The notes under the pieces: generated by a model
Database searches by the model: none
What the model was told of the DNA's origin: nothing
The model's input: the letters and a program-made list of their open reading frames with translations, nothing else
Source: Phycisphaerae bacterium
Lineage (GTDB): Bacteria; Planctomycetota; Phycisphaerae; Sedimentisphaerales; Anaerohalosphaeraceae
Direction of reading: 5' to 3'
Length of the DNA stretch: 32,154 bases
NCBI GenBank assembly: GCA_018433925.1
Contig: JAHDQI010000142.1
Location: 1-32,154, forward strand
Part shown: positions 27,267 to 31,629 of the stretch, in pieces
Layout: every line of letters starts with the position of its first letter
Position numbering within the stretch: the stretch's first letter is position 1
Translations under genes and position numbers: made by a program

Positions 27267-29402
27267 TTACGGCCGGCAGCCATCCGGGCTTTGCCGCCCG
27301 CAGACCAGCCATTGTGAGCAGAAGGCGGCAAGATCGGTCAGATCGATCATGCAGTCGCCGTTGCTGTCCATCGAGGGCGGGTCGATACAGGGCCAGACAG
27401 AGCCGGGGCCGGCCGTCGATTGACTGGCCTCGATCGTGCCTCCGTAAGCGCCCAGGTTGATCCGACCGCCGTGAGGATTCAGTTCCAGTTGGGTATCATC
27501 CGCCGGATCGCCAAGATCGATACAGCGGCTGCTCCGTTCATCCATAACCCAGTCGGAGACGGCTGGATCCCACCTGCCTGCCTCTGAGAGCAGGTGATAG
27601 TCATTTGAATCGGCGTCTGCGAAATGGGGATCTTCTACGATACTGCCGATGCCGGGTACCGCTTCGCCGTCAAACGATCCTCCTTCGTTTTGCCAGAATG
27701 CGTTATAGCGGTTTTCACATACTCCGCTGATGCCGATGCCTTGATTAAAGGCCAGGATGTTATTTTTAACGAGGCCGCCGCAGTTTGCCAGTCCGCCGCC
27801 GCCGTTGAAGGCAAGGGTATTGTTGACAATGTCGCCATCGGAATTAACTATGGCTGTCTGATGATTTCGGATAATCAGATTGTTGCCGATCAATCCTCCG
27901 CAGGATTCCACGCCGTAGGCCTTATTGTAGGCGATATGATTATTCCGGATGATTCCGTTGCATTCAAAAACGCCGTATTCATTATTCGTAATCAGATTGT
28001 TTTCAAGAAGTCCGTTGCAGCCGGAAACCGCGTCATAGTTATATTGAATCGTATTATTCAGCAGGGTCGGCGCCGACAATTCCATCCCGACAATCCCGTA
28101 ATTAACACAGCCCAGAACCGTACAGTTCTCAATCACAGGCGCAGCGTTCCGGCATACAATCCCGTACAAAACAGTCTGCGAGCAGGCCGGGTACCGCAAA
28201 TCAAACCAGTAAATTTCAGGTAGTGTAGTGCGGCCATCCTGCCAGGCGACAATGGTTCCGTCAATGGCCGGGTTGGTCTGGCTGCCGGAGGCCGAGCTGA
28301 TAACAATTTCTTCTCCCTCGATCAGGTTCTTTGCGTAAATATCCTCGTTTCCGGTCCGATTGTCCTGCCAGACAACCCACGGTCCGCTTAAATCAAAAAA
28401 CGTCTGGGCGCTTTCAAGCGTGCAAACTTCAAATTCGATGCCGGTTGTCCGGTTTTTCCCGTACAGATCATAATTTCCGTTTCGCTCATCTCGCCACACA
28501 ACAAACTCCCCGGAGACGGCCGGGCGGGTCTGGGCCCCTTCGGCTGTGCAAATCTCAAATTCCTCGCCGCTGGTCAGGTTCTTTCCATAGATGTCGCTGC
28601 CGGTTGTTTCGCTGTTTCGCTGATCGCTCCAGACGACGATGTCTTCATAAATATCGGGATTAAACTGGGAGGCCGAATGCGTACAGATTTCCAATTCATT
28701 GCCGTCGGCCAGGTTTTTTCCGTAAATATCATAATTGCTGTTTCGAAAATCCCGCCAGACAACCACCTGCCCGTACACCGCCGGATCGTTCTGCATCGCG
28801 GTATTCGTGCAGATCGCGATTTCCGTCCCTGTGGAAAGGTCCTTTCCATAGATATCGTAATTGCTGTTTCGCATATCCTGCCAGACGGCCAGGTTCCCGT
28901 AAATATCCGGATATTCCTGGTTTCCTGTTTGCGTGCAGACGGCGGCCAGTTCATGGGTCTCCAGGTTGCGGCCGTAAATCTCTTTGTTGCTGCTTCCGTT
29001 GCGATGGTCTGTCCACAAAAGCCACGGCCAACTGACGGCCGGGTGTTCCTGGGTATCACTGTCGCCGGTGGCATTGAAGGCGTTGCTCAGAATCGTCAAT
29101 CCCTTCAGCCGCGCCGCGTCTGTCTCGGCGTATTCAAAATATACGCTTCCGTTGATAACCGTGGATGCGACAACGTCAGGATCACCCGGGTCCGTGCTGG
29201 TCAGCGTAAGATCCCGCCCGGCAAAAGTGATATCTTCCTCATACAGTCCCGGAGAAACCACGATCGTATCCCCGTACCAGGCCGCATAGATTGCCTCCTG
29301 AATGGTCTGGAAATCCCCGCCTCCCGCCGGATCCACAAGAAAGGTCTGGCCCCCCGCCAGTCCGCACACCCACAAGAAAAAAACCACGGCCGCTGTCTTC
29401 AT
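27267..29402 (-). CDS. Secreted right-handed beta-helix protein with an inserted seven-repeat propeller and dockerin-like end
   Basis: This 711-residue protein begins with a signal peptide (MKTAAVVFFLWVCGLAGG). Residues of about 20-105 are the start of a pectate-lyase-like beta-helix (DFQTIQEAIYAAWYGDTIVV, then LKGLTI). Residues of about 115-400 hold seven propeller repeats of about 40 residues, each shaped P-[AD]-[IV]-x-G-x-x-[VA]-W-x-D-x-R-N, then DIYGKNL and a [EI]-ICT strand. The helix then resumes with YGIVCRNAAPVIENCTVLGC and repeated NN-x-I coils to about residue 620. The C-terminus DSNGDCMIDLTDLAAFCSQW is a single dockerin-like motif with Cys at the usual Gly position. No polysaccharide-lyase catalytic residues can be assigned. 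It is probably a surface carbohydrate-binding or adhesion protein. Confidence 0.88.
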   Translation of the reverse strand: MKTAAVVFFLWVCGLAGGQTFLVDPAGGGDFQTIQEAIYAAWYGDTIVVSPGLYEEDITFAGRDLTLTSTDPGDPDVVASTVINGSVYFEYAETDAARLKGLTILSNAFNATGDSDTQEHPAVSWPWLLWTDHRNGSSNKEIYGRNLETHELAAVCTQTGNQEYPDIYGNLAVWQDMRNSNYDIYGKDLSTGTEIAICTNTAMQNDPAVYGQVVVWRDFRNSNYDIYGKNLADGNELEICTHSASQFNPDIYEDIVVWSDQRNSETTGSDIYGKNLTSGEEFEICTAEGAQTRPAVSGEFVVWRDERNGNYDLYGKNRTTGIEFEVCTLESAQTFFDLSGPWVVWQDNRTGNEDIYAKNLIEGEEIVISSASGSQTNPAIDGTIVAWQDGRTTLPEIYWFDLRYPACSQTVLYGIVCRNAAPVIENCTVLGCVNYGIVGMELSAPTLLNNTIQYNYDAVSGCNGLLENNLITNNEYGVFECNGIIRNNHIAYNKAYGVESCGGLIGNNLIIRNHQTAIVNSDGDIVNNTLAFNGGGGLANCGGLVKNNILAFNQGIGISGVCENRYNAFWQNEGGSFDGEAVPGIGSIVEDPHFADADSNDYHLLSEAGRWDPAVSDWVMDERSSRCIDLGDPADDTQLELNPHGGRINLGAYGGTIEASQSTAGPGSVWPCIDPPSMDSNGDCMIDLTDLAAFCSQWLVCGRQSPDGCRP

Positions 29403-29517: not shown

Positions 29518-30036
29518 CTACAGGCCGAACGGGGGATCCACATAGGGATCAAAATAAGGGTCCAGCATGGCCTTCGTCTCGGCCGAATAGCTGAATTTGA
29601 AGACCATCGGCCGGGCCAGCCGCTGGTATTCGTCCATCGTCATATGAATCGAGGTTTCATGCGAACCGGCCGGAAAGGTGATCTCCTTATCCCTGGCAAG
29701 CGTTTTGTCCATCAGCGTCGGCAGGTCGTAGAGATTGCCGAAGGGGGCCTCGGCCCCGACCTGGCTGTCGGCAAAAAGCCCGGCCATCTGTTTTTCATCC
29801 GCCAGGCGCACCTGGCGGACTTTCAGGTGCTTTTGCAGGGCCAGAAAATCGATTTTCCGGTCGGCCGGAAGGACGCACAGATAAAAACGCCCGTCGGCCT
29901 CCACAACCACACACTTGGCCACCTGCCGCTTTGGGATTTGCTCAACCCGTGCCAACTGCTCAGCCGTGTAAGCCGGTTTGTGATGAATCAGCTCGTATCG
30001 GCAGTTCTGAGCATTCAAAAAATCAATGACATTCAC
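29518..30036 (-). CDS. YbaK/ProX-type aminoacyl-tRNA deacylase
   Basis: Proteins of this family hydrolyse misacylated tRNAs in trans. The 172 residues match a single YbaK/EbsC domain: MNVIDFLNAQNCRYELIHHK, then the strand QVAKCVVVEADGRFYLCVLP with the conserved Lys41, and the GAEAPFGNLYDLPTLMDKTL loop. A C-terminal extension is rich in Pro, Tyr and Asp (LDPYFDPYVDPPFGL). A strong Shine-Dalgarno (AAAGGAGG) precedes the ATG. The amino acid removed cannot be inferred. It lies 65 bases after a small membrane protein gene and may share its transcript. Confidence 0.87.
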   Translation of the reverse strand: MNVIDFLNAQNCRYELIHHKPAYTAEQLARVEQIPKRQVAKCVVVEADGRFYLCVLPADRKIDFLALQKHLKVRQVRLADEKQMAGLFADSQVGAEAPFGNLYDLPTLMDKTLARDKEITFPAGSHETSIHMTMDEYQRLARPMVFKFSYSAETKAMLDPYFDPYVDPPFGL

Positions 30037-30452: not shown

Positions 30453-30992
30453 TTACAGTGTGATCTTAAGCTGTTCCTCGGCACGAAGCATGGTTTCGGT
30501 TTCAGTATCGACCAGTTCGCGGATCAGCCGTTTTCGGATTCGTGAGAGGCCCATCCGGAGGATCTTTTCCTCAACGGAGCCGGCGATGACCCGCGCCAGG
30601 GGCCGGTTGAGGCGGTATTGTTTGACCAGGGTCTCGACGATGTCTGACTTGTCCCAGGGCCGGGCGTCGTCCTGATCGGTTGTTTCCTCGACTACGACGA
30701 GGCGTTTTCGCCGGAGCTTGCGGCCGATCCGGTGATCATTCAGGAGGTGAGCGGCCGTCGCGAAGCCCGTGTCCCGAAGGACGGCCTGTGCCATGAGGTG
30801 GATTTCGTCCGTGGAGATTGTGCGGCTTTCGGGGCGGCTGTAGAGGTAAAAGGTCACGGCCTCGGCCATCTGCTCGGCGGCGAACAGGTCGCCGGTTCCG
30901 GCCTCGCTGAGGGCTTGGTGAAAGGTGCCCAGTACTTTCGTGTGAAGGTACGGCTCGATTGTGCGATCGGTTTTCATCACCCGAATACGCAT
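30453..30992 (-). CDS. ATP-cone domain protein without zinc ribbon, downstream of nrdR
   Basis: This 179-residue protein starts with an ATP-cone (about residues 3-95: IRVMKTDRTIEPYLHTKVLG, then STDEIHLMAQAVLRDTGFAT and AAHLLNDHR). ATP-cones bind ATP or dATP in ribonucleotide reductases and in NrdR. The C-terminal half (about 108-172) has a second helical unit, PWDKSDIVETLVKQYRL then VEEKILRMGLSRIRKRLIRE, resembling cone-like segments of other ATP-cone proteins. No reductase catalytic domain or DNA-binding zinc ribbon is present, so it is probably a nucleotide sensor. It lies 63 bases after nrdR and is preceded by AAAGGG, suggesting a shared operon and a role in deoxynucleotide control. Confidence 0.82.
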   Translation of the reverse strand: MRIRVMKTDRTIEPYLHTKVLGTFHQALSEAGTGDLFAAEQMAEAVTFYLYSRPESRTISTDEIHLMAQAVLRDTGFATAAHLLNDHRIGRKLRRKRLVVVEETTDQDDARPWDKSDIVETLVKQYRLNRPLARVIAGSVEEKILRMGLSRIRKRLIRELVDTETETMLRAEEQLKITL

Positions 30993-31055
30993 CGTTTTGC
31001 CCTTTCGACGAGAGGTCTGGTTTTGGCCGGTTTTGGCGGTTTCCGGCGGATCTCG

Positions 31056-31547
31056 TTACGGATTAAACAATCCCGGCTGGTCCGTCAGGTCCGGTTCCTG
31101 AAGGGCCAGGTTAAATTCGTCCAGCAGTTCTCCGGCGTCGGTAAATTCCCGATAGACGCTGGCGAATCGGATATAGGCGACCTTATCGATCTTTCTCAGG
31201 TGTTTCATGGCGGCCTCTCCCAAAAAGCGGGACGAGACTTCCTTGTCGCAACTTCGGAAGATTTCCTCTTCGATCCGGTCGGCAACCTCCTGAATGGTTT
31301 CGGCCGAGACCGGGCGCTTGTAGCAGGCCTTCTGGAGGCCGGCGATGATTTTTTCGCGTTCGTAGGGGACCCGTGAACCGTCTTTCTTGATGATGCTGAG
31401 CTTGAAGCTTTCGCCGACCTTTTCATAGGTCGTAAACCGGCGCTGGCAGGCCAAACACTGCCGACGCCGCCGAATGATCCGCCCGCCGTCACTCGAACGC
31501 GAATCAATCACCTTATCCTGATCTTCCTTGCAGAATGGACATCTCAC
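31056..31547 (-). CDS. nrdR: Transcriptional repressor of ribonucleotide reductase genes
   Basis: NrdR binds NrdR boxes upstream of nrd operons and senses ATP/dATP. The zinc ribbon has CPFC (Cys3, Cys6) and CLAC (Cys31, Cys34) around DSRSSDGGRIIRRRRQ, followed by RRFTTYE. The ATP-cone runs from about 49 to 139 (IIKKDGSRVPYEREKIIAGL onward). The GTG at 31547 gives the standard MRCPFC-type N-terminus and has GGGA just upstream; a TTG at 31562 is the longer alternative. The 163 residues are about ten longer than usual because of a C-terminal tail. Two NrdR-box-like palindromes and a promoter lie immediately upstream, implying autoregulation. Confidence 0.95.
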   Translation of the reverse strand: MRCPFCKEDQDKVIDSRSSDGGRIIRRRRQCLACQRRFTTYEKVGESFKLSIIKKDGSRVPYEREKIIAGLQKACYKRPVSAETIQEVADRIEEEIFRSCDKEVSSRFLGEAAMKHLRKIDKVAYIRFASVYREFTDAGELLDEFNLALQEPDLTDQPGLFNP

Positions 31548-31577: not shown

Positions 31578-31593
31578 CCACTATATATAGATT
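31578..31593. promoter_or_regulatory. NrdR-box-like palindrome 1
   Basis: CCACTATATATAGATT matches about 13 of 16 positions of the published NrdR-box pattern acaCwAtATaTwGtgt. It lies 31 bases upstream of the nrdR GTG, close to the expected transcription start. Confidence 0.6.
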
Positions 31594-31601
31594 GATTGTA
31601 A

Positions 31602-31629
31602 ATAGTAATCGCAGTATCTATGGTGTCAA
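31602..31629 (-). promoter_or_regulatory. Candidate nrdR promoter
   Basis: On the minus strand a perfect TTGACA (31624-31629) is followed after 16 bases by TACTAT (31602-31607). The -35 overlaps NrdR-box 2. Confidence 0.5.
31611..31626. promoter_or_regulatory. NrdR-box-like palindrome 2
   Basis: GCAGTATCTATGGTGT matches about 12 of 16 positions of the NrdR-box pattern. Its start is 33 bases from that of box 1, about three helical turns, so both face the same side of the DNA. Confidence 0.5.

Follow-up and report, generated by a model that had tools for sequence, protein, structure and literature searches.

NrdR is a repressor that lowers the synthesis of DNA building blocks. Its sensing domain, the ATP-cone, has been described as in essence restricted to reductases and to NrdR itself (PMC11226230), and all of the closest described counterparts of the small double-cone protein reported here belong to these two groups, apart from one weak match. 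In structure, the best counterpart is the double ATP-cone of Pseudomonas aeruginosa NrdA (5im3; Foldseek E 1.7e-7 over 175 columns), in which an outer functional cone is likewise followed by an inner cone; those cones, however, sit on a class I enzyme that is active, and they share 17% identity with our protein. The best sequence match among solved structures is the ATP-cone of L. blandensis NrdB (5olk; E 8.9e-5). As in our protein, the cone is borne by something other than the catalytic subunit, but it is fused to the radical-generating subunit and a single cone is matched. NrdR of S. coelicolor and E. coli (PMC9110341, PMC12176259) has an ATP-cone with corresponding contacts and is represented by the neighbouring gene in our locus, yet our protein lacks its zinc ribbon and DNA-binding domain and resembles it less than it resembles reductase cones. 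The weak match is the N-terminal domain of the archaeal 2-phosphoglycerate kinase (PRK04220), an unrelated enzyme, to the NrdD-type form of the second unit (E 1e-4 to 1e-5).

The NrdD proteins examined from Planctomycetota (for example at locus L159) begin with a module in which both units of our protein recur, arranged alike; they share most of the conserved residues and are encoded in the same position, directly after nrdR. Relative to them, our protein is without the catalytic barrel, the zinc site, the glycyl-radical domain and the equivalent of NrdR residue R51, and at the position of NrdR E56 it has glutamate where they have valine. In the openly accessible literature searched, neither a free-standing cone protein nor a pseudo-NrdD tied to nrdR was found described, and the literature on Planctomycetes with NrdR held nothing relevant by title and abstract.

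Organization of the nrdR operon

The window analysed is the whole 32,154-nucleotide stretch of contig JAHDQI010000142.1 from a Phycisphaerae bacterium of the order Sedimentisphaerales (GCA_018433925.1). On its reverse strand, nrdR (31056-31547, stop codon included) encodes a repressor with a zinc ribbon followed by an ATP-cone (Pfam Zn_ribbon_NrdR, 1.2e-19; ATP-cone, 3.6e-22), which matches TIGR00244 at E 4.5e-51 (172.8 bits, well above the 124.65 required). The GTG at 31547 is its start and agrees with the start in relatives (MRCPFC...). The double-cone gene, an open reading frame of 179 aa on the same strand (30453-30992, stop codon included), lies 3' of nrdR across a gap of 63 bp (30993-31055), and the coding strand of this gap holds no terminator-like site. 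The initial annotation of an nrdR operon with a downstream cone gene thus stands.

Upstream of nrdR, and on the same strand, is a predicted sigma-70-like promoter (TTGACA-16-TACTAT, 31602-31629) with 10 of 12 consensus matches. It is overlapped by an NrdR box, ACACCATAGATACTGC (31611-31626), and a second box, AATCTATATATAGTGG (31578-31593), follows on the same strand, such that the two are 33 bp or about three helix turns apart. The best box pair 5' of nrdR scores at least 22 in 54 of 77 loci of the order, a score reached by 0.75% of shuffles and by none of 75 stretches downstream of the double-cone gene. A chance origin of the boxes is ruled out by these shuffles and control stretches. Because box pairs are conserved 5' of nrdR in the order and absent from the controls, the double-cone gene is very probably co-transcribed with nrdR under NrdR feedback.

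Two further reading frames on the reverse strand follow the operon. The one just 3' of it (29518-30036) reads like a putative YbaK/ProX-type aminoacyl-tRNA deacylase, and the other (27267-29402) encodes 711 aa that, judged by eye, look like a secreted repeat protein with a dockerin-like stretch, DSNGDCMIDLTDLAAFCSQWL, at its end.

Domain structure and nucleotide site

The only Pfam match in the 179-aa protein is an ATP-cone (PF03477) at residues 4-81, which is weak, its 23.0 bits falling just short of the 25.8 set as the curated cut-off. The same domain is matched by all 76 of the aligned homologues at E<=1, many of them above the gathering cut-off and the best at 1.2e-11. Profile scans with Pfam and TIGR models found neither the NrdR zinc ribbon nor TIGR00244 in the protein; the catalytic barrel with its radical cysteines, the glycyl-radical site RxxGY and the zinc CxxC pair are likewise absent, as the protein ends after its second unit. 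An AlphaFold2 model built with the 76 homologues as input has a pLDDT of 92. Unit 1 (residues 1-97; 30702-30992, reverse strand) is a complete ATP-cone according to Pfam, the model and the alignment, and the model places the full cone at residues 4-97, with strands at 4-6 and 12-14, helices at 17-30 and 36-51, a strand at 58-60 and helices at 61-74 and 78-97. Unit 2 (residues 98-178; 30459-30701, reverse strand) is cone-like according to the model and the alignment. Its modelled elements, spanning residues 99-178, come in a similar order: a strand at 99-101, helices at 115-126 and 130-147, a strand at 151-153 and a helix at 154-178. What had been described from the DNA, an ATP-cone joined to another unit that is cone-like, with neither zinc ribbon nor reductase domain, thus proves accurate.

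The model has the strand-capped four-helix fold of a cone and superposes on known cones at about 2-2.5 Å over 87-97 columns in Foldseek, which ranks P. aeruginosa NrdA (5im3) first, then NrdB (5olk), NrdD (8p28) and NrdR. A sequence-profile search of solved structures found NrdB, NrdA and NrdD; NrdR was not among its matches. A conserved C-terminal tail of approximately RLRQPQNGLCPVEA occurs in family f2 only (L055, L061, L063, L065, L067, L068, L072 and L074-L078) and may be a short interaction motif.

In S. coelicolor NrdR, the inner nucleotide is contacted by K50, R51 and E56, mutation of V48 weakens binding, F58 sits in the loop that recognises adenine, and K62 touches the outer nucleotide (PMC9110341); the contacts in E. 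coli NrdR agree (PMC12176259). The alignment equates V48, K50, R51, E56, F58 and K62 with V5, K7, T8, E13, Y15 and K19 of our protein. All 76 homologues have K7, E13, Y15 and K19, and also R91 and R95 of the same unit, without exception, and position 5 is valine in 72 of 76. The equivalent of R51, a phosphate contact in NrdR, has been lost and is alanine, serine or threonine in nearly all members of the order. The nucleotide-binding residues, whose absence would have told against a cone-only partner of NrdR, are therefore retained at four invariant positions and missing at one. Unit 2 contributes a further four invariant residues (W113, K115, V140 and E141), for a total of ten in the 76 sequences. 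On reading the alignment, we found no counterpart in unit 2 to the inner-site lysine, and this unit probably does not bind nucleotide. In this it resembles the inner cones of multi-cone reductases, which are described as the more variable ones (PMC9669993). Nucleotide binding by the protein as a whole is a prediction from its residues, and we consider it likely that the protein is a functional nucleotide sensor.

Conservation of the gene pair

The double-cone protein is present in 79 of 98 genomes of the same order, with matches free of internal stops, and nrdR is matched in 90 of the 98. In every locus fetched from the order, nrdR lies directly 5' of the double-cone gene on the same strand, so that the proposed pairing is indeed a conserved one. 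The gap between the genes is mostly 9-137 bp, and 220-505 bp in six loci. A contig scan of close relatives found three, and the pair was present in 3/3. Pairwise dN/dS of the double-cone protein ranges from 0.04 to 0.31 in 11 pairs, while values for NrdR reach up to 0.07, from which we conclude that the double-cone gene is under purifying selection and evolves faster than nrdR. These ratios exclude a chance open reading frame, and so does the fact that several families of the order share both the gene and its position next to nrdR.

Family f4 (L133-L135, L141 and L142; five genomes) has kept nrdR and a class II nrdJ and has no double-cone gene. It is a natural deletion of this gene that can be used for functional comparison. 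A few other genomes of the order also have nrdR without the double-cone protein.

Origin of the double-cone protein

An alignment-based search across the phylum found matches in 179 of 294 Planctomycetota genomes, with longer reading frames outside the order, and nrdR was directly upstream in 23/23 of the loci fetched first. A profile of the 76 sequences (positions 4-174) matches both units at the N-termini of NrdD-type proteins with E values of 1e-29 to 1e-34, and matches NrdR at about 6e-4 only. Sixty longer regions were fetched from the phylum, 58 of which yielded a homologous reading frame. In 51 of these 58 loci nrdR adjoins the longer homologue on its upstream side, often with overlapping frames, and one more has an nrdR fragment at a contig end. 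Among the rest, two loci of family f32 have a pseudo-NrdD unlinked from nrdR, which sits elsewhere in the genome; no nrdR was found in the two genomes of family f67, which are 77-79% complete (the one f67 locus among the 58 comes from the 77%-complete genome); the upstream sequence covered at L188 and L192 holds no nrdR; and L193 begins at a contig end.

These homologues form a series. L159 is a complete NrdD with two ATP-cone stretches (TIGR02487, 413.8 bits against a cut-off of 326.35), and an NrdG2-type activase is encoded downstream of it. Six loci have every feature checked, namely the YCSSHS cysteine, CCRL, the CxxC pair and RxxGY. Six others have the cysteines and the zinc site without the glycyl-radical motif; L160, which would be one more, is truncated by the end of its contig. 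More than 40 are dead pseudo-NrdDs, mostly of 560-790 aa, with neither cysteine motif, with no glycyl-radical motif in place, and usually without the zinc site. In the order of the window the two cones stand alone, mostly in proteins of 170-230 aa. Four of the six genomes with an intact NrdD have no class I/II reductase match, and nearly all genomes with a dead NrdD carry such reductases. NrdG2 scores above its cut-off in one dead-NrdD genome alone, G327, which has both a dead NrdD linked to nrdR and a separate NrdD with an NrdG2 activase (L152, L227).

A tree of the module unites the proteins of the order in a single clade (SH-aLRT 99). At least two changes on it are needed to account for the dead versions, one group of which is placed among intact and glycyl-less NrdDs; this is a quick tree in which many branches are weak. 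With considerable confidence, we trace the double-cone protein to the N-terminal module of a class III NrdD encoded after nrdR, from which it has become detached. This origin was missed by the initial annotation, accurate as its description of the protein was. The most economical reading would be that the lineage gave up catalysis but retained the sensor, still next to nrdR. That the gene was copied from an NrdD at some other site of its own genome can be set aside: NRDD (PF13597) is matched in only 9 of 98 relatives within the order and was found nowhere in the genome of the window, and in those relatives' NRDD proteins that have a complete N-terminus, encoded at another locus, the NRDD domain directly follows a single cone.

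Proposed function

The genome of the window has one class I/II reductase match, the class II enzyme NrdJ (PRK06556, 1339 bits versus 859), in which no ATP-cone was found. A pair of NrdR boxes 30 bp apart lies 5' of nrdJ (L132, 729 and 759; span 729-774). Since the only reductase detected is this cone-less NrdJ, and since box pairs precede both nrdJ and the nrdR operon, the double-cone protein very likely works within the NrdR regulon as a free-standing sensor of ATP and dATP. Because pairing with nrdR is conserved across much of Planctomycetota, what is left of the enzyme probably does regulatory work of its own.

We propose the following course. An ancestral NrdD would have been encoded directly after nrdR, and in the order of the window its catalytic barrel, zinc site and glycyl-radical domain would have been lost and the double-cone sensor kept. 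Unit 1 would bind ATP or dATP, and unit 2, a degenerate cone, would serve as a structural element or an interaction surface. Through the shared promoter with its boxes, the dose of the protein would track NrdR feedback. Its nucleotide-dependent binding to NrdR would shift the repressor between DNA-binding and non-binding assemblies, thereby adding a second sensor to the repression of the single class II reductase.

NrdR may well be the main target, and we favour it tentatively because it is the constant companion of the module while the reductases vary across the phylum (some class I, others class II, and not all of them with cones), and because in the loci examined the module is never beside a class I/II reductase gene (nrdJ or nrdAB). 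Dead versions, too, keep their link to nrdR, although nearly all of their genomes have class I/II reductases. Counting against NrdR as the target are the loss of the R51 equivalent, family f4 with its nrdR and nrdJ but no double-cone protein, the unlinked pseudo-NrdD of f32, and f67, where nrdR was not found. Moreover, the cone is of the reductase type (like those of NrdD, NrdB and NrdA), so mixed oligomers formed through NrdR's own interface are not expected, and the initial proposal that the protein joins the cone oligomers of NrdR is less likely in that form. The full sequence of events, in which an NrdD beside nrdR became a dead sensor more than once and was stripped in this order to a double ATP-cone that now acts as a co-regulator of NrdR, is one we hold more cautiously, as something that might have happened.

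If this is true, a metabolic enzyme was converted into an additional nucleotide sensor that serves the very repressor controlling the pathway to which the enzyme belonged. A conserved free-standing cone, together with dead NrdDs tied to nrdR across the phylum, would add a component to the control of DNA precursors. The free-standing form would show directly what ATP-cones do without an attached enzyme, and the intact, glycyl-less, dead and cone-only versions would constitute a natural set of variants on how a partner tunes nucleotide sensing by NrdR.

The strongest rival is regulation of a cone-less reductase in trans: the detached cone would bind NrdJ and switch it off at high dATP, and in other Planctomycetota the targets would be their class I/II enzymes. 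We regard this as possible, if somewhat doubtful. Reductases are the usual targets of cones, the only one detected in the genome of the window has no cone, and the box pairs before nrdJ and the nrdR operon mean that the two proteins would be co-regulated. However, the module stays with nrdR and is beside nrdJ or nrdAB in no locus examined, and f4 has the same type of NrdJ without the double-cone protein. Pseudo-NrdDs are also kept where the class I reductase already carries a cone or two itself (at least two class I enzymes in dead-NrdD genomes do, by reading), and the one cone-bearing class II enzyme that has been studied is stated to have shown no regulation of its activity (PMC9669993).

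Less probable, and in our view unlikely, is an accessory sensor that acts on something else or only passively, perhaps by buffering dATP/ATP or by binding another protein of dNTP metabolism, and that is beside nrdR merely for expression within the regulon. The unlinked copies in f32, the loss of the gene in f4 and the tail unique to f2, which suggests a lineage-specific extra contact, are consistent with such a role, but a specific partner is suggested by how persistently the gene stays with nrdR and by the residues of unit 2 that never vary. It is very improbable that the gene is a decaying, functionless remnant of nrdD: the entire catalytic part is gone and f4 has lost the gene, yet the gene is under purifying selection (dN/dS 0.04-0.31 in 11 pairs), keeps ten residues unchanged throughout the 76 sequences and has stop-free matches in 79 of 98 genomes, which contradicts this reading. 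Least credible of all is descent from NrdR, by way of a paralogue that shed the zinc ribbon and acquired an extra cone, since, for all that the gene adjoins nrdR and encodes an ATP-cone, both units match the NrdD N-terminus (E 1e-29 or better) far better than NrdR (about 6e-4).

Candidate split NrdD proteins

Some genomes with a glycyl-less NrdD encode a separate reading frame of 120-172 aa with an NrdD-like glycyl-radical domain (TRIVGYYSRVENWNKSK...). The putative split class III enzymes are L183 with L223 1583-2098, L189 with L222 1400-1774, and L163 with L224 1532-1891; a further radical domain lies at L225 1713-2111. No class I/II reductase was found in G290 and G301, two of the genomes with a candidate split NrdD, which suggests that the radical domain works in trans. 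One genome, G146, has an intact NrdD plus a spare glycyl-radical domain.
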